From a virus: a DNA stretch of 24,995 nucleotides. The stretch is from positions 1 through 24,995 of IMG/VR virus record IMGVR_UViG_3300046458_000156, one strand, 5' to 3'. The translations under genes and the position numbers were made by a program. Each line of letters starts with the position of its first letter. The first letter of the stretch is position 1. Shown piece after piece: positions 1 to 20,523 of the stretch. The notes under the pieces were generated by a model. It ran no database searches, was not told the origin of the DNA, and saw nothing but the letters and a program-made list of their open reading frames with translations.

Positions 1-2625
1 ACCATCAGCGTTTTCCTGAATGGCCAGCGCCTGCTGCTCAAGGTCGTCGGCATTCTGTTTAATGTCGTCAGCCATGCCAGCAATTTTTTCATTGCTGTCC
101 ACCGCGTTCTCGATTAGGTCCTTAAACGTGTCCGATTCTTTGATATCCTCCAGGATGGCATCAGTGATGTCGGAAACATCGATGCTGGCCTGGCCCCGAA
201 CCCAGTCTGTGAACCCCGATTCGTTGCCGGTTCGGTCCACCAGCTGCGCCCGGTACCAGAAAATCTGTCCCGCCTTGAGGCCCATCTGCTGATGTTTGCG
301 CTGCGGGTAAGGCACATCGGCCAGCAGCATCGCATCATTTTCGGCCCCGGTCTGGCTGTACTGGATTTCAGTCTTCAGTGTATCGTCGGTGTTCGCCGGG
401 AACCCCCAGTTCAACTCGATTCCAAACACCACGTTTTCAGAAGCGATAAAGCCAACTGGCTTCGGTGGATTGCCCACTTTACCCGTCAGCGTTTTCTCTT
501 CTGAATATCCCCAGCCAGATGAAATTTCCGCAGCATTGATGGCGCGCACACGCACCAGGTAGCGCCCGGCGTAAATGCCCGGTACGTCAAAAGACGTGGT
601 GGAGCTGCGCGGTACGTTCACCCAGTTCCCGTCGTTGCGGCGCCACTGCGCTTCATAGGCGATAGCATTCTGCGCCTGGTCCCAACTGACGCGCATTGTT
701 TCAACGCTGATATTCTGCTGAACCATCGAGAAGGAGTTGATCACGATGTTTGCTGGCGGCGCCTGATTGCCCGGAGGAATAACACTTATCGGGCGCTGGT
801 CGATGATCGCCCCTGTATCAATGCGGGCGTATTTATCCGGATCGTGATTAGCTCCGGCGATGGTAAATGTCCCATCATCGTTGTCCGTCACACTAACTAC
901 ACGGTATTGCTGCGAGTAAAGTTCATCACTCTCTAACAACCAGACAGCTTCAGCGTTTGGTGTTTCGCTATACGGCGTGGTGACAGTGACCGCTTTATCT
1001 GAAATCGCCTGGATAGTGCGTGACTGAGCAACACCGGAAGGCATGTTAACGATTAGCCTGTCTCCTGCCGCGGCGCCAGGAGCTCGATCAAGATTGATAA
1101 CCCGGCCATTTGCACTGGCAATTCTTCCGCCCAGATCGCGACCCGAAAGATTCCTGTCCGCCACAGCGATGACATATCCGGGTTGTGGAATATTGCCGTC
1201 CAGCCCGACATTGAAGGTCACCACTCGGTCTTTATTATTGGTGAGAATGCCCCAGCGCCCTTTTCGGTTCGCCTCCGATTGTCTGGTGCAGCCAATGGCC
1301 GTCAGCTCGAGCTGATTGAAGCCATAGCGTGCCACCAGCGCCTGCTCAAAAACCGGCTCCATAGCATCAGCATAGGCATTATCCGGATCGGACCAGGAGA
1401 CCAGCGCGTTTGTGTACCGGCTCTTGGTCGTGCTGCTGGAGTAGGTGAACTTACCGTCGACAACGTTGGCGTGGGTGTAACTGAAATCGACATCACGCGG
1501 CATATCCGCGAGGCAGACAATCTGATCATCGCCCCAATAGGTCATGCCCCTGAATATGGCAGCGAAGTCTCGTAGCACGGTGTAGGCGTCGTTTCTGTCC
1601 TGAATGTAGACGTTGCAGGTATATCGCGGCTCGGTACCACTCCCGCCCTTGCCGTCTGGTACCTGTTGATCGCAGTACTGCGCAACCTGGTAAAGCGTCC
1701 ATTTGTCGATATTGGCCGCAGTGAGACGATTGCCTAACCCGAAGCGGTCAGTGATCACCAGATCGTAAAAAATCCATGCAGGATTCTCCGTCCACGCCCA
1801 CTTAAACGTGCCCGTCCAGGTCCCGCTGTAGGTTCGGGTCTCGGGATCGTAGGTATCGGGAACACGGATTACGCGTCCGCGGGGTTCGCAGGAAATCTGA
1901 GGGATGGATCCGTTAAACTGGCTCGAGTCAAACTCGATATAGAGCAACGCCGTATTCGGGTAACGCAGTTTGGCGTCAATCACCTCAGTAAAGCTTTGCA
2001 GCGTCATTGCATCGCCGATTTTTGCGCTATTTGCATCAGCGGTTATCTTACGCAGACGAAGCGTCCAGGTGCTGCCCGCCTGCGGTAAATCGATACGGTG
2101 GCTGCGCTCGTAACCGGAGGTCGTTTTCCCCGTAACGCTGGTATTTAATACGGTCTGCCATGTACCACCGTCGGTCTGCAGATCGATAGCATAATTGATG
2201 GAATAGCCAACAAGATCGCCGTCGTCCTCTTGCTTAAAAAGAGAGGGCCATTTCAGACGCAGGCGCACAGCCGACAGCTGGGTATTAGTGAATGTGCGGG
2301 TCCAGGCGGTTGCACTCGAAACCTCAGCCCCCACGCTAATTTCGTTTTCGGTACCGGGAATACCCGGGATGTATTTCTGAGCCTGCGTTCCCGGGCGGAA
2401 CTCCCACGTGACGCCACTGAAGTTCTGCGATCCGTCGGCGTTCTCGAGCGCGGTACCATCCAGGTAAATATCCTTTCCTGTGAGGTGGCCAGCGAACTCT
2501 CCCTCTCCAAGCGCGATGAGGATTTTCGCCTTTGCTACAGATTGGAGGTCGTCTGGCTGTTCGGTCGGGGTTCTTGAACTGGAGTCGCCACCTTTACGGC
2601 CCTTAATAGCAGTTGCTGTAACCAT
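1..2625 (-). CDS. J: Host-specificity / central tail tip protein J (C-terminus cut by window edge)
   Basis: The reading frame is open from the ATG at 2625 to the left edge, giving 875 residues without a stop; the C-terminus lies outside the window. The N-terminus (MVTATAIKGRKGG, then AKILIALGEGEFAG and YIPGIPGTENEIS) and the middle (AIFRGMTYWGDDQIV) are typical of lambda gpJ, the tip protein that binds the host receptor and plugs the tail tube. Fibronectin-III-like segments follow (for example GQIFWYRAQLVDRTGNESG), and the last visible residues form a heptad-rich stretch (EKIAGMADDIKQNADDLEQQ) that is probably a coiled-coil stalk. The gene is last in the tail operon here, as in lambda. Its ribosome-binding site is weak (GGGCGA). 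A strong terminator hairpin ends only about a dozen bases upstream of the ATG, because a foreign cassette separates J from gene I. I checked the frame at several internal places and found no frameshift. Confidence 0.95.
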   Translation of the reverse strand, partial: MVTATAIKGRKGGDSSSRTPTEQPDDLQSVAKAKILIALGEGEFAGHLTGKDIYLDGTALENADGSQNFSGVTWEFRPGTQAQKYIPGIPGTENEISVGAEVSSATAWTRTFTNTQLSAVRLRLKWPSLFKQEDDGDLVGYSINYAIDLQTDGGTWQTVLNTSVTGKTTSGYERSHRIDLPQAGSTWTLRLRKITADANSAKIGDAMTLQSFTEVIDAKLRYPNTALLYIEFDSSQFNGSIPQISCEPRGRVIRVPDTYDPETRTYSGTWTGTFKWAWTENPAWIFYDLVITDRFGLGNRLTAANIDKWTLYQVAQYCDQQVPDGKGGSGTEPRYTCNVYIQDRNDAYTVLRDFAAIFRGMTYWGDDQIVCLADMPRDVDFSYTHANVVDGKFTYSSSTTKSRYTNALVSWSDPDNAYADAMEPVFEQALVARYGFNQLELTAIGCTRQSEANRKGRWGILTNNKDRVVTFNVGLDGNIPQPGYVIAVADRNLSGRDLGGRIASANGRVINLDRAPGAAAGDRLIVNMPSGVAQSRTIQAISDKAVTVTTPYSETPNAEAVWLLESDELYSQQYRVVSVTDNDDGTFTIAGANHDPDKYARIDTGAIIDQRPISVIPPGNQAPPANIVINSFSMVQQNISVETMRVSWDQAQNAIAYEAQWRRNDGNWVNVPRSSTTSFDVPGIYAGRYLVRVRAINAAEISSGWGYSEEKTLTGKVGNPPKPVGFIASENVVFGIELNWGFPANTDDTLKTEIQYSQTGAENDAMLLADVPYPQRKHQQMGLKAGQIFWYRAQLVDRTGNESGFTDWVRGQASIDVSDITDAILEDIKESDTFKDLIENAVDSNEKIAGMADDIKQNADDLEQQALAIQENADG

Positions 2626-2636
2626 GTTTCGCCCAT

Positions 2637-2660
2637 AAAAAAAGCCACCCGTGGGTGGCT
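2637..2660 (-). terminator. Intrinsic terminator ending the accessory gene at 2684-3253
   Basis: On the minus strand an 8-bp perfect stem (AGCCACCC / GGGTGGCT) is followed at once by seven T. It lies between the stop of the 189-aa accessory gene and the ATG of J. J can only be reached from upstream late transcripts if polymerase reads through, as Q-modified polymerase would. Confidence 0.85.
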
Positions 2661-2683
2661 GGCAGTGATTTGAACATGGAAGG

Positions 2684-3253
2684 TCACGATTTCAGCAACA
2701 ACTTGTAAAAATACGCTTCGTCGTAGAGTCGTAGAAATCTCAAAGCACAAGTTTTGATATAATCGGCTTGCTGATGTGGCCTAACATTCCCATGTAGCTG
2801 GTAATTTAAGTAATAATAACCAAGACCTTCTTCGTAGTTATTTACAAAGTCGTCGTGTAATGCACTCCAGTAAGAAACAACACGGTTTAACAGGCCAGCA
2901 GGCAAGTCATACCATTGGACAAAGGTTTTACTTAATTCACTCCAGAGATCATGCTCGCTCAGTGGGTAAGCAAGCTTTTTAAATGTCAGGCGTAAAGACA
3001 AAACAAACGCCTCGTGATCATCTGGCAGTTGATAACCTACTTCGTCGATATATGCGTCGAAATAATGAAACACCTCATCTTTAGATATTTCTTTATCTAA
3101 CCCTAACGATGCCAGTATTAACAAGTTTGATGAACTGCTCCCTACTGAAATCTGCTGTTCAGCCCAATCAGTAAAAGCTCTACGATCCAGTCCCGGCTTG
3201 TTTAATTTTCGAATGCCAAGCAAATCATGAAAATCTACGGCATAGCCATCCAT
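2684..3253 (-). CDS. Unknown 189-aa protein, moron-like cassette between tail genes I and J
   Basis: The product is soluble, mostly helical, and rich in aromatic residues (RHD-poor, many Y, F and W). It has no signal peptide or membrane segment. The N-terminal part contains FTDWAEQQISVGSSSSNLLI followed by LASLGLDKEISKDEVFHYF; the pattern WA...L..G..S..L..LA.L....EV..YF resembles, from memory, a widespread uncharacterised bacterial family, but I cannot name it. The C-terminal third is basic and aromatic (GLGYYYLNYQLHG). I chose ATG 3253; an in-frame TTG at 3265 is the alternative. Base composition is visibly more AT-rich than in the flanking tail genes, and the gene has its own terminator. 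In lambda, I and J are adjacent, so this is an insertion. Expression in the lysogen with a role such as exclusion or defence is inference. Confidence 0.75.
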   Translation of the reverse strand: MDGYAVDFHDLLGIRKLNKPGLDRRAFTDWAEQQISVGSSSSNLLILASLGLDKEISKDEVFHYFDAYIDEVGYQLPDDHEAFVLSLRLTFKKLAYPLSEHDLWSELSKTFVQWYDLPAGLLNRVVSYWSALHDDFVNNYEEGLGYYYLNYQLHGNVRPHQQADYIKTCALRFLRLYDEAYFYKLLLKS

Positions 3254-3313
3254 AAAATCCGCCAATTACTTAATCATACCTTTCAAGACGATACACTTGC
3301 TGCGCTGACGTTG

Positions 3314-3928
3314 CTACTGCTGATCTTCCACGTAGATGCCGGCGGAGATAATGGCACCGCCAATGCGTCGCTTGCCATAAAGAAGTGGGACCGGATTTCC
3401 CTGTGCTGTGGTGTTCGTGACACCGCCAAAAGCGTAACTGGCCTGATTATCAGCAGACTGCTTACTGGCAAGGCCGGCCGTCTGCGGCGACATCATTTGA
3501 ACTACGCCGCCGATCATCATCGCAGCACCGAACTTCGCTACCCCATAACCTGCCGCTGATAGCGTGCCAGCAGAAAAGTAACCAATCGCAACGCCGACGA
3601 CGACAAGTACCGCCCCGAGTATCGTCTGGAATGCGCCTGCTTTTTTGCTACCAATGATTACTGGCGCGATACGGATATCTTCACAACCTTTATCCATGTC
3701 GAGTTCATCAGAGATCAGGTTGCGCTTCCCACTGAAAACCGCGTAAGTCAGGCCCCGCTGCTTGCTGGTGTTCAGGTAACGCTCAAAGCCAGGAAGGATG
3801 ACGCAAAGAGCGCGGACGGCTTCTTTCGGAGAAGATACGGAGAGGTTAAACTCGCGACCAAAGGTAGCCCCGAGGATGCCATAAAGGCGAATCGTTCTGA
3901 TTGAGTCATGTGTTTTAATCACAAGCAA
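3314..3928 (-). CDS. I: Tail tip assembly protein I
   Basis: The product of about 204 aa matches the lambda tail assembly protein I family: an N-terminal ubiquitin-like part (THDSIRTIRLYGILGATFGR, SPKEAVRALCVILPGFERYL), then IRIAPVIIGSKKAG, then a hydrophobic Gly/Ala-rich segment (AVLVVVGVAIGYFSAGTLSA), ending in NPVPLLYGKRRIGGAIISAG. It acts with K, L and J in building the tail tip. The start is uncertain. A TTG at 3928 lies 4 bases after GGAG; a GTG at 3922 lies 10 bases after it. No in-frame ATG fits. A terminator hairpin ends just upstream of the ribosome-binding site. The gene is intact, although accessory cassettes flank it on both sides. Confidence 0.92.
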   Translation of the reverse strand: MLVIKTHDSIRTIRLYGILGATFGREFNLSVSSPKEAVRALCVILPGFERYLNTSKQRGLTYAVFSGKRNLISDELDMDKGCEDIRIAPVIIGSKKAGAFQTILGAVLVVVGVAIGYFSAGTLSAAGYGVAKFGAAMMIGGVVQMMSPQTAGLASKQSADNQASYAFGGVTNTTAQGNPVPLLYGKRRIGGAIISAGIYVEDQQ

Positions 3929-3936
3929 TCCACTCC

Positions 3937-3964
3937 AAAAAAAAGCCCATCGACTAAGATGGGC
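3937..3964 (-). terminator. Intrinsic terminator ending the accessory gene at 4015-4662
   Basis: On the minus strand GCCCAT pairs with ATGGGC (6 bp, 7 with an added G-C pair) around a short loop, followed by eight T. It sits between the membrane-protein cassette and the start of gene I, the same layout as the terminator before J. Confidence 0.82.
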
Positions 3965-4014: not shown

Positions 4015-4662
4015 TCAAACCCAACTTTTAATCCATTGCCAAAATGAAGAGCACTGTTTTAGTGATTCAACCGACTTCATTTCAGGATGGTTAAGATTGA
4101 ACGTCACGAAACTATTTGGGCACTGTGCGGAAATTGAAAAATAGCTCACCAAACAGGCATCAACCTTCGCACCATCAGTGGAATGGTACACACCATCAAT
4201 CAGTGAGGCGGTTGGTGGAAGATACTTCGCCTTCATCAACTGATAATTCAAATCCATTAAGTCCATCACAGGCGCCATAGCACAAGCTTGAGCTGCATTG
4301 AGATAGGATTGCCGATCTCCCCGGCAATTATTGGAAGCATCGATGAATGCGTCTCGTAAATCAGATCGCAGATTTACATAGTCTGGATCAAGAGCCTTAG
4401 AGCTTGAGAAAACGCTGATAATACTTAATAAAACGCCCAGAGCGAACATTACCCCGCCGACTTTAAAATCGAGGACACCCCATATCATCCATCTCAACAA
4501 AAATAATGACAATCCAAGTCCTGTGAATAATTGCCCACCGCCAGCCCACAGATTGAAATCACAGCTAAAAATATTATTAACTAAAAGTAAACCACCAATA
4601 ACAGTAGGAGCTGAGATGGCAGTCCATTTTAGAAAATCCTTTGTTCCACTGTTTAGTTGCAT
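4015..4662 (-). CDS. Unknown membrane protein with Cys-rich C-terminal domain, moron-like cassette between K and I
   Basis: The product is 215 aa. Three hydrophobic segments are visible at about residues 14-32, 43-62 and 68-86, separated by a polar turn with K67. A polar domain of about 130 residues follows, with five cysteines (113, 127, 170, 181, 204). With Lys8 and Lys12 at the N-terminus the positive-inside rule places the C-terminal domain in the periplasm, where the cysteines could form disulfides. No family is recognised. K and I normally adjoin in lambdoid phages, so this is an inserted gene; it is clearly AT-richer than its neighbours and has its own terminator. The ribosome-binding site is weak. 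Inner-membrane proteins encoded by morons often block superinfection, but nothing in the sequence proves that here. Confidence 0.75.
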   Translation of the reverse strand: MQLNSGTKDFLKWTAISAPTVIGGLLLVNNIFSCDFNLWAGGGQLFTGLGLSLFLLRWMIWGVLDFKVGGVMFALGVLLSIISVFSSSKALDPDYVNLRSDLRDAFIDASNNCRGDRQSYLNAAQACAMAPVMDLMDLNYQLMKAKYLPPTASLIDGVYHSTDGAKVDACLVSYFSISAQCPNSFVTFNLNHPEMKSVESLKQCSSFWQWIKSWV

Positions 4663-4676
4663 GCATTAAACCAACC

Positions 4677-4706
4677 ATTCTAATGTTTCAAAAAAACCAT
4701 TATTAA
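4677..4706 (-). promoter_or_regulatory. Possible sigma-70 promoter for the membrane-protein cassette
   Basis: On the minus strand TTAATA (4706-4701) and TAGAAT (4682-4677) are 18 bp apart in an AT-rich stretch just after the stop of K. They match the consensus at 4 and 5 of 6 positions. The predicted start lies within about 10 bases of the ATG, so the leader would be very short. This is a weak call, made because an independent promoter is expected for a cassette with its own terminator. Confidence 0.3.
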
Positions 4707-5416
4707 ATAAAAAATGATTTGTGACGAACGGTTTTAATTGTTCGTTCTCGCCAGTACCCGCCGTAAGGCACACGCTGACTCAAGTGGCCATACAAATGAT
4801 GCAGCAACATGGTGCCTTCTAAAATGATGCCGGCATGATTCCATTTGTTAGCCTGGACCTGCATGATCACCATATCGCCGGATTGAACCGGCCCATTAAA
4901 CTCTCGGAACCCACATTCATACCAGCATTCCTGATAGAAATTATCCGAATAACTGTCCTCCCACCACGGATAATCCACACGATAGTCGGTCAACTCGATG
5001 CCATAAGTTTGCCGATAATAACTCATCACCAGACCCCAGCAATCGTACACACCCAGAACAAACGGACGCCCCACCAGCGGCAGCTCACCACGCGGTTGAA
5101 TAGTGCGCAGATCTCCCTCCGGCCAACTCACGATATGCCAGGGCAAAAGCGTCACATCACATTGTGCTTTATCCTGTTCGCTCGGCTGAGTCGTTGCGTC
5201 AGGGTGGCTATGAACAATGGCCGTTACCGATCCCCAGTCTTCGGCAGCCGCATAATCCTCTGGCGAAAGATGAAACTGCTCTGTCGGATCAGAAGAAAGG
5301 TTGCGGCAGGGAAAATAGCGCTCCACCCGGCTTTTCTGAGCCACCACGCCGCAGCATTCGCGTGGATACTCCTTCGCGGCATGCGCCATGATGGCGCTAA
5401 TCGTTTTCTGACGCAT
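4703..5416 (-). CDS. K: Tail tip protein K: JAMM isopeptidase-like plus NlpC/P60 peptidase
   Basis: The 237-aa product has two peptidase-like domains, as in lambda gpK. The N-terminal JAB/Mov34 domain (about residues 1-110) keeps the metal-site pattern: Glu20 in PRECCG, His69-Ser-His71, Ser79 and Asp82. The NlpC/P60 domain (about 115-237) has the catalytic cysteine Cys126 in YDCWGLV, His194 in WNHAGIIL and His206 or His207 as the third residue. It acts in tail tip assembly and may cut peptidoglycan peptides during DNA entry. The gene starts 2 bases after the L stop codon. The last codons (HKSFFI) are AT-rich and border the inserted membrane-protein cassette, so the extreme C-terminus may have been altered by that insertion. 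Confidence 0.93.
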   Translation of the reverse strand: MRQKTISAIMAHAAKEYPRECCGVVAQKSRVERYFPCRNLSSDPTEQFHLSPEDYAAAEDWGSVTAIVHSHPDATTQPSEQDKAQCDVTLLPWHIVSWPEGDLRTIQPRGELPLVGRPFVLGVYDCWGLVMSYYRQTYGIELTDYRVDYPWWEDSYSDNFYQECWYECGFREFNGPVQSGDMVIMQVQANKWNHAGIILEGTMLLHHLYGHLSQRVPYGGYWRERTIKTVRHKSFFI

Positions 5417-5418
5417 GG

Positions 5419-6174
5419 TTAGCTCCTGATGAGAGAGGTGCCCGGGAAGCCACCGAAGGGTAATTCTTCATTCTCGCCAAACCTCAACCGGCATGCGGTC
5501 AGCGTTCCATTGCAGGCATCAAGGGAAGGACCGCCTACCGGGTTATTGTTCAAGTCGAAGTATCTGGCGCCGGCATAATCGCACCCGTCACCAGAGCGAT
5601 ACTTGTTGCGAATACACCAGGTACATAGCGAATGGAGCTGCCGCGTCGGAATCATTAACCCCTGAAGATCCATAGGGCTGGAGAGAATAAACTCGACGCT
5701 TTCCCCTGCCAGTTCGTTGTTCTTTCCATCGATGTAGAACACGCGCTTTCTCACTTGCAATGGATCTGCAGTCGCATTTCCCTCAGGAAAGTTTCTGGCA
5801 TCCAGATAATGAGCAAAAGTATCGTGGATAGTGACCTTCGCCTGGAGCATATCGTCGTAGGCCAGACAGAGCGCAGTGATCGAGCTGTCGATGTTTGCCA
5901 CGGTAAGAGTTGGTTGCGCGCTGCTGCCGTCCGTTGATGCTTCAAGCCCTTCAAGCTGAAAAGGCCAGGCAGCATATTCCTTTCCCTGCCACCAGATACT
6001 TTTCGCTGCAAGTTTCGTCTCATCACCGCCAGCAGCGGCAATTTCATCAGCCGTATGGGGCAAGTTGTAGGCATGGAAGCGCAGGACGTCATCAACACCA
6101 AAAGTGGACCCATCAACCTCAATGAGGCGGATCTTATTGCCGGGTTCAAGTCGCTGGTAATCTTCTGTGATCAT
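5419..6174 (-). CDS. L: Minor tail protein L (tail tip, Cys-ligated metal cluster)
   Basis: The 251-aa product matches the phage minor tail protein L family. The C-terminal cysteines at 184, 198, 221 and 228 keep the spacing of the Fe-S cluster ligands in lambda gpL for the last three (23 and 7 residues apart); Cys187 is an additional one. The motifs LHSLCTWCIRNKYRSGDGC and LDACNGTLTACRLRFG mark this region. The protein forms part of the tail tip between the tube and J. Its ATG overlaps the M stop codon by 4 bases (ATGA), which indicates translational coupling. Confidence 0.93.
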   Translation of the reverse strand: MITEDYQRLEPGNKIRLIEVDGSTFGVDDVLRFHAYNLPHTADEIAAAGGDETKLAAKSIWWQGKEYAAWPFQLEGLEASTDGSSAQPTLTVANIDSSITALCLAYDDMLQAKVTIHDTFAHYLDARNFPEGNATADPLQVRKRVFYIDGKNNELAGESVEFILSSPMDLQGLMIPTRQLHSLCTWCIRNKYRSGDGCDYAGARYFDLNNNPVGGPSLDACNGTLTACRLRFGENEELPFGGFPGTSLIRS

Positions 6175-6518
6175 GGTGCGTATGCCTGTTTGAAAGTGGC
6201 TGTAATGGTCATTACTTTGCTCGAGAGCGGCTGCGCTTTCACTGAATCAGCCTCAACGCGGTAAAGTCCTATCTCGCCAATCGGTGATGTCCAGATAAAC
6301 GATTTTGTAATGTGCAAACGGCAGAAATTTAGAGCGGCTAGCATCTCGATTGTTTTACCCGTAAGGGTTATTGGCCAGGACTGCTTTTCGGGATGGATGC
6401 CCTCACCTGCAATCTGCTCATAGCCGTCACCGAAAGATGCGGCGCGAGTCGAGTGACTAAACTCGCCTTCCATGCCTGCCTGTATCTGGGTTCGCCAGGT
6501 GAATGTTTGGATCGCCAC
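6171..6518 (-). CDS. M: Minor tail protein M
   Basis: The 115-aa product belongs to the phage minor tail protein family (lambda gpM). Motifs seen are TFTWRTQIQAGMEGEF, the SFGDGYEQIAGEG core typical of the family, and a C-terminal ITATFKQAYAP. It joins the tip complex to the end of the tail tube. It is preceded by a terminator-like hairpin after the tape measure gene and overlaps L by 4 bases. CCGGAGG, within 10 bases of the start, is a good ribosome-binding site. Confidence 0.93.
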   Translation of the reverse strand: MAIQTFTWRTQIQAGMEGEFSHSTRAASFGDGYEQIAGEGIHPEKQSWPITLTGKTIEMLAALNFCRLHITKSFIWTSPIGEIGLYRVEADSVKAQPLSSKVMTITATFKQAYAP

Positions 6519-6533
6519 TTATCCTCCGGGCAT

Positions 6534-6552
6534 AAAAAAACCGCCGAAGCGG
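6534..6552 (-). terminator. Terminator-like hairpin after the tape measure gene
   Basis: On the minus strand CCGC, a TTCG tetraloop and GCGG are followed directly by seven T. The stem is only 4 bp but has a very stable UUCG-type loop. It starts next to the tape measure stop codon and ends before the M ribosome-binding site. Confidence 0.65.
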
Positions 6553-6553
6553 G

Positions 6554-9500
6554 TCAACGTGATTTCGTTGCATTCCATATCATACCGCCGGGCTGGAGTT
6601 GCCGGGCAATGCCCGCCCGAACAGACTGATCGATCGTCTGCTTATAAGCCCGGGTGATCGCTTCGTCATTACCTGATGTTTGCTGCTGTGCATTTTCGTT
6701 CTGCACGACTACTGAGGTTTGCACCGTAACACCACCAGCGCCAGCGGATTGCAGCCCATACATCGGCGCATTGCCAACATAACCGCCGTCAGCGTAACCC
6801 TGATCACCACGCATCATTGCGTAGAGATTGCCAACGCCGATCGCGCTGGTAGCCTCTTTGGTGAATACAAACTCACCACCATGCACGATACCCTTCGGCT
6901 GGTATTTCCCACCATCACCGGTGTAGCCGCCGTTGTCGAACGCCGGGACCAGGCCGCCCTGGGAGAAACCGAAAAAGGCTCCAACAGCCGTCCCGCCAAA
7001 CGCTGATTTCATACTGTTGACCATAGCCAACTGGACCAGCATCTGGGCAATGCCCTTAAGGAATGTGGTCAGAAAATCCGTGAAGTTGGCTTTGCCAGTT
7101 GTGAAAAAATCCGTGAGCGTTGATGCCATGCCCGTAAATGCGGACTGGGAAAGGTTTTGCATCTGCCCATAGACATTGGAGGCACTGTCTTCGAACTCAG
7201 ACCACCCCTTCTTCGCACCGGTCAGCCAGTCTCCACGCAGCCGATCCTCAGCATCGTAATAGTCAGTCGCCGCCTTGAGTTGCTTCTGATAACCGTTGTC
7301 GTCCAGAGAACTGCCAGAATTTTTCCAGCCGGCAGCCAGCTGGCTTTTCGCAAGTTCACGCTGAGCTTGCCGATCGCTCATCCCGGCTCCGCCTGTCAAC
7401 GCGGCCTGCTTCTCGGCCATCTGAGTGGCGTATTTCTGCGCGGTATCCATCCGCTTGTTCAATTTTTCCTGCGCTGAGACCTGATCACCCAGTAGCGCTT
7501 TCTGGCGCGCCAGTTGAAGAACCAGGTCCTTACTAGCCAACAGCGATTGCTCCTGTTTAGTAAGCGAGCGGGACCGGGAAGCCTCTTCCAATACCTGAAA
7601 TCTGGCTTCAGTGGTCCATAAGTTTTTGCGCTGCTGACTGATCGTGTCATTCAGGTCTTTATGCTTCTGCAGGGCATACAGCTGCGCCTGTAGCGCCAGC
7701 AATTCAGACTGAGCAGAATCTTCAGCTCGTAAACCGGACGAGAGTGTTTCCCCCTTCGCCTTTGGCGTTTTGGGGTCTTTATACAGCTTCTCGATCCCGG
7801 CTCGCGCTTTGGCAATGTCCTCAGCCGTCCAGAGTGTCGCCGTCCCGTTTCTTGCAGCTTTTGCATTATCAGCAATGGCTTTGTTCAGTTCGTCCTGTGC
7901 CTGACGACGCTTCTCTGCGGCCTCAGTACCGGCATCAAGATAGCGATTCATGATCTGCTGGGCAGTTATCGCATCTTCGTTAATTTCTTTTCCTGCGGAT
8001 ATCGCCCCGTTCAAGTCGTCCTGAAGAGTGATGGCTCCCAGCATGGGGTTAATCTGGGCTTTCAGCGATGCAATGGCTGCCAGCTGCGCTTTACGGCGAT
8101 TATCGTAATCCCTGTCCTGCGAACTGGTGTCGTAGCTATAGCCGTACCCCATCTTCTGGCGCTCAGGCAATAACTTACTTTCACGATCTGCCAGGTCAGC
8201 CTGCATTTTTGCAAGCATGTCTTGCGGGGCTTCTGGGCGCCCAATATTGAGCAACTCGTCCCACATCCCTTTGAAGGCATTGCGCGCGGCAAGTGCAGCT
8301 CTTTCAACCAGACCGAGATTATCGAGGATCTGCTGGCTTCTGCGCTGTTCAGCCTGGCTATATGCATCAGCTGCAGCTTGCCCGGCCGCCTCTTTATCAC
8401 CCCGGCGTTCCAGAGAAGAGATATATTCAAACTGAGCCGCAGTCAGGTAATGCAGTTGATTGTTAAGCTCCTGCGATGCCTGAGTTGGTTCGGCGTACAA
8501 TTTCTGGAAGTTAGCGATGGTTTTATCAACCGCCTGCCCGGTTGCCTGCTCCATCGCAACCGCCGCGCGACTCACGGTTTCAAGCTTGTTTGCATCAAAC
8601 TTTCCGGACCCGACCACCTGAGCCAGAACGGAAGATGCCGCATACTGGGTTACACCGCCACCTGACAAAGACTTTGCCAGTGCAGTCAACTGTGTGGCAG
8701 TTCGGCCCGCATAGTTGCCGGTCAGGATCAGTTGCTTATTATACTCAGTCGCCTCTTGCGACCCTTTATACCAGGCTGCGATCAGCAGGCCAGCAACACC
8801 TATCATCCCCCCGAGGGCCAACTTTGCTGGCGTCACCAGCGAAAGCATGGCTTTCAGCGCATTACCCACCCCGCCAAACGTGTCTCGCAACTGGCCGCCT
8901 TGTTGGATAGCAACCATGTATACCGGCATGCCCGACGCAAGCGAGGTAACGATGTCGGTCATTTGCATTGGCAGGTAACGCATCGCATTACGATACTGCC
9001 CCGCACTGATTGCGCCGTTCTTCCAGACGTTTTCTTGTTCCTTCAGTTTGGCGATCATCGGAGCGGCCTGCTGCGTCACTCCCAGCTGTGCGGCTTTTAG
9101 CTCAAGGATTTCGGCGCGAGTTTTTCCGATTGCAGCTGTCTGCTCCTCCAGTGAGGCGATGAATGTTTTCCCTGATACAACTGCCCGTTGTGCCGCCTGA
9201 GCCTGCTCAATGCGAGCCCGCCCTTCCGCCGTTTCGGCCTCCATGACCTGCGCCAGTTTCGCCCGGGTCGTCTCCAGCACGCTGTTGTAGCGGGTGAAAT
9301 CTTCATCGTCCACCAGCCCTTTACCGCGAAATTTTGCCAGGCTTTCCTGAATTGAGTCCAGCTCATCCAGCGCCTTATTCACCGGGCTGATTTTGTTCAG
9401 CAGGTTCTGCAATTCCTGGCGCTGTTGCTTCAGGCTCTCACTGTTTTTCTTCTGATTATCGACACCGGTGCGGAACGTACTGTTCAGGTCATCCGCTTTA

Positions 9501-19884: not shown

Positions 19885-20523
19885 ATGGCAATGCTTTCAA
19901 TAGATAAAACATGTCCACATTGCTTAAAAGATAACGCCGTCCTAAGTTTGATAAAGGACGCAACTCTTTTACCAGGAATTTACTCTGCGGTTTTTCAGTG
20001 CCAGTCTTGCTTCAAGCTTATGGTGGCAGAGATTCAAACGAGTTCGTATGGTAGCCCTTCTAATCAAGCTAATAACGCTCTCTTCCCTTTAAGAGCTGGC
20101 GAAGATACAAAAATGATCGTTTTGGGCACGTACCCCGAAGCTGTTTCTCTTGAAGCCCCTGCGCATACTCCAGAACGAGCGGCCAAATTTTTCGTTGAAG
20201 CGAAAGAAGATTTCGCGCGTGGACGATATGAAACCAGTGCAATGAATTGCAGGAAAGTAATTGATATAGCTACAAAATTTCTTCACCTAAAAGAGGTAGA
20301 TAAGCTTGTTAGACGCATATCTGCGCTTAGGGAAACAGGTTTAATAACGCAAGAAATGGCTGACTGGGCTCATATAGTACGTATAGATACTAATGGTGCT
20401 GTTCATTCTGACGAGGAGTTTACTGCTGACGAGGTTGATCAGTTGCTTAAATTTACAGAGGTGTTTTTAACGTACTCATTTACGTTACCCGCAATGGTCA
20501 AAGCCAAGCGAGAACCTGAGTAA
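19885..20523 (+). CDS. Zinc-ribbon DUF4145 protein, plus-strand accessory gene
   Basis: The 212-aa product has an N-terminal zinc ribbon (Cys10/13 in CPHC, Cys39/42 in CQSC) and a C-terminal helical DUF4145-like domain (about residues 95-200: AAKFFVEAKEDFARGRYETS, AMNCRKVIDIATKFLHL, WAHIVRIDTNGAVHSDEEFT). DUF4145 occurs alone and fused to restriction-type helicases and other defence-associated proteins; its activity is not known to me. The gene is AT-rich and opposes the late operon, between terminase and lysis genes, a place where lambdoid phages often carry lysogenic-conversion genes. Expression in the lysogen and a role in defence or regulation are inference. An 8-bp inverted repeat (GCCATTAC / GTAATGGC) lies just after it, without a T run. 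Confidence 0.85.
   Translation: MAMLSIDKTCPHCLKDNAVLSLIKDATLLPGIYSAVFQCQSCFKLMVAEIQTSSYGSPSNQANNALFPLRAGEDTKMIVLGTYPEAVSLEAPAHTPERAAKFFVEAKEDFARGRYETSAMNCRKVIDIATKFLHLKEVDKLVRRISALRETGLITQEMADWAHIVRIDTNGAVHSDEEFTADEVDQLLKFTEVFLTYSFTLPAMVKAKREPE

Follow-up and report, generated by a model that had tools for sequence, protein, structure and literature searches.

The locus raises the question of what an AT-rich gene is doing between I and J, two of the tail genes in a lambda-like temperate phage, and whom it serves. The window analyzed here is the whole stretch of 24,995 nucleotides from IMG/VR virus record IMGVR_UViG_3300046458_000156. It covers the late region of the phage on the minus strand, in the order tape measure, M, L, K, a cassette at the K-I junction, I, the gene in question (the cargo gene), and J (Table 1). 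The nearest named phages across the tail-tip region include mEp390, mEp234, and HK446. The protein of the K-I cassette had no match in Pfam, NCBIfam, PHROGs, or PADLOC.

Table 1. Features of the tail-tip region, with positions in the window
Feature	Position	Strand	Remarks
Tail-tip gene J, N-terminal 875 codons, runs off the window	1-2625	minus	Named J homologs in phages and E. coli
Backbone hairpin before J, intrinsic-terminator-like	2643-2660	minus	Also in empty junctions
Cargo gene, 189 aa	3253-2684	minus	ATG at 3253, stop at 2686-2684
19-nt element AAGWGTATCKTCTTGAAAG	3280-3298	minus	Lies upstream of the cargo gene's start; both cargo subfamilies conserve it
Tail assembly gene I, start codon uncertain	3314-3928	minus	PHROG tail assembly protein, E 3.2e-74
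Terminator-like hairpin between K-I cassette and I	3945-3964	minus	
215-aa cassette at the K-I junction, by eye probably a membrane protein	4015-4662	minus	Neighboring cargo
Tail gene K	4703-5416	minus	PHROG minor tail protein, E 5.4e-130
Tail gene L	5419-6174	minus	PHROG minor tail protein, E 8.5e-118
Tail gene M	6171-6518	minus	PHROG minor tail protein, E 9.5e-32

Two phage types meet in a mosaic joint at about 6100-8800. Likeness to Escherichia phage PHB10 runs from 8826 on and takes in the head and early tail genes. HK022-type likeness reaches to about 6040 and takes in the tail tip. A 212-aa ORF lies on the opposite (plus) strand at 19885-20523, beside the terminase small-subunit gene. 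By eye it has zinc-ribbon-like CxxC pairs and what we take to be a DUF4145-like look. It is possibly another cargo gene.

The cargo gene and the I-J junction

The original prediction placed an AT-rich gene of 189 aa between I and J, and this description held. Counted from its TTG, the ORF (2684-3265) has 193 aa; the start that is conserved, an ATG at 3253, gives 189 aa. Its GC content is 0.402, against about 0.52-0.57 in the flanking genes J and I, a composition unlike that of its neighbors, as in a moron. Relatives of 188-189 aa with 68-96% identity are encoded on 17 IMG/VR contigs. The dN/dS ratio was 0.13-0.16 between the window gene and the relatives on L002 and L003, and 0.20-0.26 in three of four pairs inside the other cargo subfamily. 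A nearly identical pair from that subfamily (L011 and L018) gave 1.02, a value that says little. Between the window gene and the other subfamily, pS was 0.83-0.87, at which synonymous sites are saturated, and pN was 0.18-0.20. The cargo ORF is intact and under purifying selection.

The junction was surveyed in the best 80 loci by similarity to the N terminus of the window J, a ranked and not a random sample, in which 79 new loci were measured. The I-J gap, counted from the last sense codon of I, was 54-59 nt (empty) in 59 of the 79. It was 320-1034 nt (filled) in the other 20, with nine length classes. Two of the filled loci, L043 and L044, are the same contigs as L002 and L003, and tblastn found no relative of the cargo protein in the 18 others. 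The cargo gene is missing from 77 of these 79 best J-like loci (59 empty, 18 with other cargo), a distribution unlike that of a structural tail protein, which would be kept along with the tail module. In all 17 IMG/VR relatives the gene lies at the I-J junction, and it starts 60 nt past the I stop, or 63 nt past the last sense codon of I. One filled locus (L007) and one empty locus (L060) form a near-isogenic pair. They are identical at 954 of 1003 upstream positions (95%) and at 1463 of 1501 downstream positions (97.5%). The gene is accessory, lies between conserved phage genes, and is missing in close relatives. It is a dispensable single-gene cassette, or moron, in an HK022/mEp-type phage.

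Both junctions of the tail-tip cluster had been expected to accept cargo, and the survey agrees. Of 73 loci among the best J-like ones, 13 had a K-I gap of 11-35 nt and 60 had one of 320-3683 nt. The K-I and I-J junctions of lambdoid phages are cargo slots with rapid turnover. Length variation was greater at K-I than at I-J. In a Pfam scan of nine proteins, eight of them I-J cargos and the ninth encoded near a P2-type integrase, the one clear match was to UPF0257. Among the alternative I-J cargos of L046, L064, L078, and L113, some are opposite in strand to the late operon and so must carry their own promoters. A similar noncoding stretch recurs between several alternative I-J cargos and the terminator. 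L113, which we take to be HK022, has a 509-nt I-J gap holding other genes; if it is HK022, cargo at the I-J slot was already known. Since the I-J cargo is so diverse (nine length classes, both strands, and one UPF0257 match), a role cannot be read from the site. This diversity leaves room for some other host-conversion or anti-defense role that has nothing to do with toxins or superinfection, such as inhibition of a restriction or abortive system of the host. Nothing specific points there, and we hold such a role to be quite improbable.

A terminator with an 8-bp stem had been predicted right before J as part of the cassette. The hairpin is present at 2660-2643. It has 7 pairs with a 4-nt loop, followed by a T run, and reaches 8 pairs only if the loop is 2 nt. 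Its assignment to the cassette did not stand. A strict stem rule detects the hairpin before J in 49 of the 59 empty loci, 16 of the 20 filled loci, and 14 of the 17 loci with the cargo gene. In the 14 J-survey loci that failed the rule, reading by eye shows it with a mismatch or a G-U pair. The region's terminator count was 6, against 4.0 +/- 2.1 in shuffles, which is not itself significant; conservation is the evidence. A cassette that brings its own terminator is rejected because the empty junctions have the hairpin too. The cargo must have entered between the I stop and a terminator already there. A moron's own terminator would be expected 3' of the gene; the one that stands there belongs to the backbone.

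The 19-nt element lies on the other side of the cargo gene. Its pattern has one match in the window and none in 100 shuffles. A scan of all IMG/VR contigs found exact matches in 17 stretches, on the very 17 contigs that encode the relatives; these loci also supplied the pattern. The element travels with the cargo gene and is a possible regulatory element. No sigma-70-like promoter was found before the cargo gene by a consensus scan or by reading hexamers by eye; the conserved 19-nt element is present there.

This arrangement bears on a reading in which the tail operon transcript is the only one to include the gene. Its product would then help late in the lytic cycle, by modulating tail-tip assembly, progeny infection, or late superinfection exclusion. 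The gene lies on the same strand as I and J with no promoter found upstream, has a conserved upstream element tied to it, and keeps to the tail-tip junction in 17 of 17 members of the lambdoid clade. Its absence from 77 of the 79 best J-like loci argues against such a helper. So does the PHROGs search, in which the protein matched no tail family and the best match (E 0.24) was of unknown function. Relatives also stand apart from tail genes, on plasmids and at the integrase-proximal edges of prophages. We regard a late lytic helper as unlikely.

A protein family of phages, prophage edges, and plasmids

The protein was expected to be soluble and helical, which the analysis supports, and to carry the pattern WA...L..G..S..L..LA.L....EV..YF. 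The window protein contains the motif WA...I..G..S..LLILASL....EV..YF. In a 27-member alignment, with identity to the window protein down to 19%, the residues W30, A31, E32, G38, S41, L45, I46, L47, A48, S49, L50, Y64, and Y68 are invariant, and the motif serves as the family signature. Residues 24-56 are the least variable block, with a mean entropy of 1.01 against 1.54-1.89 in the other well-occupied blocks. The window protein has a pI of 5.15, no transmembrane segment, and a maximum 19-residue hydropathy of 1.13. The pI is 4.5-5.4 in all 27 aligned members; transmembrane segments were checked in the window protein. At 189 aa it has the size and solubility of a small cytosolic immunity protein.

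An AlphaFold2 model from the 27 sequences is all helical (pLDDT 81.8, pTM 0.78), with an uncertain stretch at 140-155. The first model, from eight near-identical sequences, had a pLDDT of 45.3 and was useless. A Foldseek search with the pLDDT-81.8 model gave 0 hits at E <= 0.001 in PDB and BFVD. The best VIA-align match had a Z of 5.7 over 65 residues, to a designed tVHS-like protein and then to clamp-loader subunits. This is a common helical arrangement and is uninformative, for or against the families it names.

The window protein had no match in Pfam, NCBIfam, or PADLOC, the last of which holds described systems only. Pfam searches with 17 members found no immunity family, many of which have no profile model, and gave three weak unrelated hits from single members (best E 0.059). 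The best E value in a PDB sequence search was 0.43; with a later alignment it was 0.032, to H2B. Both were taken as chance. No match was found in phage records. No relative was found in E. coli genomes, where one search matched only the last 36 nt, which are the stretch of the terminator and J. Two scans of GTDB genome contigs, which used short exact-match peptide patterns against a single genome for each species, found no relative, which does not imply chromosomal absence.

A plasmid search with the window protein alone gave no relative at E 0.01. Its relative L011 led by tblastn to four Enterobacterales plasmids, from Pantoea, Rahnella, Serratia, and Leclercia (E 2e-6 to 4e-5). An alignment that included the plasmid relatives reached 17 further distant IMG/VR loci, and a later alignment reached five more. 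A profile-profile comparison matched the I-J clade to the distant clade over 177 columns (E 2.9e-18, probability 99). The original prediction pointed to a bacterial family seen outside phages, and the four plasmids and the prophage edges show that the family occurs outside phage tails. Its homologs are not confined to structural tail proteins. No Pfam, NCBIfam, PHROGs, or PADLOC model recognizes the protein. The cargo protein is an acidic, soluble, all-helical member of an uncharacterized mobile family of Enterobacterales phages, prophage edges, and plasmids. The family appears to be undescribed in the libraries searched. Searches of the mainly openly accessible literature on orphan immunity in prophages and morons (e.g., PMC3150448, PMC3482391, PMC10539506, PMC10884400, and PMC9122126) showed no description of it either.

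Neighbor genes for Pfam and PADLOC searches were chosen by eye from 26 distant-relative loci (L118-L143), and the counts given here are not frequencies. The neighborhoods of relatives hold both interbacterial toxin/immunity genes and anti-phage systems, and so are compatible with either of the suggested roles, against phage or against competitors. Relatives at P2-like prophage edges lie directly downstream of an intact or decayed integrase (e.g., L122, L126, L127, L131, L137, and L140, by eye). In L122, L126, L131, L140, and similar loci, a second, decayed integrase C-terminal fragment lies just before the family member, as if cassettes had been added one after another at the attachment site.

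On the Serratia plasmid, the relative is one gene of an array with CdiA fragments (DUF637 modules), a Toxin-deaminase, DUF596 genes, SMI1/KNR4, a type-17 toxin, and Imm31. The Toxin-deaminase (PF14424) is split over two ORFs (E 1.2e-20 and 3.5e-7). It is followed by a 127-aa ORF and then by the relative. With the 127-aa ORF right after the deaminase, the relative is not clearly its cognate. The truncated relative in L134 has Hcp (PF05638, E 1.4e-32) and a gene with an L,D-transpeptidase domain (7.9e-5) about 1 kb away. The Leclercia plasmid relative is near a RelE/ParE pair, and the L130 relative is near HipA (E 2.6e-17). Anti-phage systems near relatives are AbiEii in L124 (PF08843, E 1e-26), AriAB/PARIS in L132 (E 1.4e-138), an AriA/OLD-like ATPase in L134, and a PDC-S06-like ATPase in L127.

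A Serratia/Rahnella-type unit of about 715-940 bp, with 87-97% identity, occurs in five settings (L119, L120, L124, L128, and L132). The unit is a single-gene mobile cassette.

A 146-aa gene (GVEFHITRAE.WAEN..) shares 4 nt with the end of the relative in L139-L143, which are close kin to one another. It also lies beside a family member in L137; these are P2-like prophages. Among the places where it has homologs are Pantoea plasmids and, on a Pseudomonas plasmid, a class 1 integron region. The six plasmid loci opened, out of 19 found, are ordinary plasmid and integron settings, and the 146-aa gene is unsupported as a marker of toxin loci.

Orphan immunity and anti-phage defense as candidate functions

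The cargo gene is most likely a passenger that protects its carrier bacterium. We favor a single-gene moron that would work like an orphan immunity protein of the CDI or polymorphic-toxin type, with a probability of roughly 0.4. On this reading the cell would make the protein as a lysogen, or at a late stage of induction. The protein would bind and block a toxin domain that a rival bacterium injects, and the prophage would pay its way through protection of its host. The common scaffold may be the pair of N-terminal helices that bears the WAE..G..S..LLILASL signature, and the toxin-facing part may be the more variable remainder.

The case for orphan immunity comes from the CdiA array around one relative, from the mobile cassette that stands alone, and from the pattern of a conserved scaffold with a variable remainder. 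The unit of about 0.7-0.9 kb recurs in five unrelated settings, as would a standalone immunity cassette. The truncated L134 relative with Hcp about 1 kb off also counts in its favor. Orphan arrays carry functional, expressed immunity genes (PMC3150448). Orphan immunity proteins can protect against foreign effectors (PMC10539506).

An immunity protein is expected to have its cognate toxin next door. No toxin gene was seen by eye beside the window gene and none was recognized in the window; the Serratia relative is one gene from a toxin. The cargo is for this reason not classed as an immunity protein, only as working like an orphan one. No sigma-70-like promoter was found for the expression in the lysogen that this reading presumes. 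No named immunity family was matched, and homologs of the 146-aa partner, in the six plasmid loci opened, lie outside toxin loci. At least four relatives lie near anti-phage systems (AbiEii, AriAB/PARIS, OLD/AriA-like, and PDC-S06), at least as many as near toxin/immunity genes, which also counts against orphan immunity.

Those four systems fit the closest rival, a single-gene anti-phage (superinfection) defense. The lysogen would make the protein, which would stop rival phages by a Tab-like logic, perhaps by sensing or blocking some component of the phage such as a tail protein. Several relatives lie directly downstream of a P2-like integrase at a prophage edge, and defense hotspots are known in P2-like and other prophages (PMC9122126). 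A moron in the late operon can be a constitutively expressed defense, as is Tab (PMC10884400). The protein itself has no PADLOC match, and no nuclease, NADase, kinase, or membrane feature was recognized in it. One relative lies inside a CdiA toxin/immunity array, and the neighbors that suggest defense were picked by eye and not systematically. We place defense close behind orphan immunity, as a serious candidate with the odds leaning against it.

The orphan-immunity reading may extend beyond this phage. HK022-type lambdoid and P2-like phages, which are unrelated temperate phages, may carry at different places in their genomes one undescribed helical family that immunizes lysogens against toxins injected by their neighbors, and prophages would then be vehicles of orphan immunity. 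We put this wider claim forward tentatively, and less firmly than the reading of the cargo gene itself. If the immunity reading is true, lysogeny would change the winner of contact-dependent bacterial competition. Such a prophage benefit is little documented in the literature searched. If the defense reading is true, the gene encodes a new one-gene anti-phage protein. Through this cargo, a lambdoid tail-tip slot is linked to a family that also occurs at the edges of P2-like prophages, in plasmid islands, and in a CdiA toxin/immunity array.

Relation to known systems

The likeness to Tab, the tail assembly blocker of Pseudomonas phage JBD26, lies in the kind of gene. Both are temperate-phage morons in or near the late operon that could act for the lysogen. 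Tab has 83 residues, however, and lies between the terminase genes (PMC10884400).

The family also shares its setting with the hotspots of P2-like prophages, since its relatives occupy variable edge regions there. The edge used by the relatives adjoins int, whereas the E. coli P2 defense hotspot adjoins cos (PMC9122126).

Orphan CdiI and polyimmunity loci differ from the window gene in that it has no identified cognate toxin or named Imm match and sits in a phage tail operon. They share with it a small, acidic, soluble protein on a mobile standalone cassette, and one relative lies in a CdiA orphan array.

The HK022-type I-J cargo is likewise an accessory, AT-rich gene slotted between conserved tail genes. 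The window family is not the cargo of HK022, is without a recognizable promoter, and uses the terminator of the backbone. What appears to be new here is the protein family, which is absent from the libraries searched; moron cargo at this type of I-J slot was known already.
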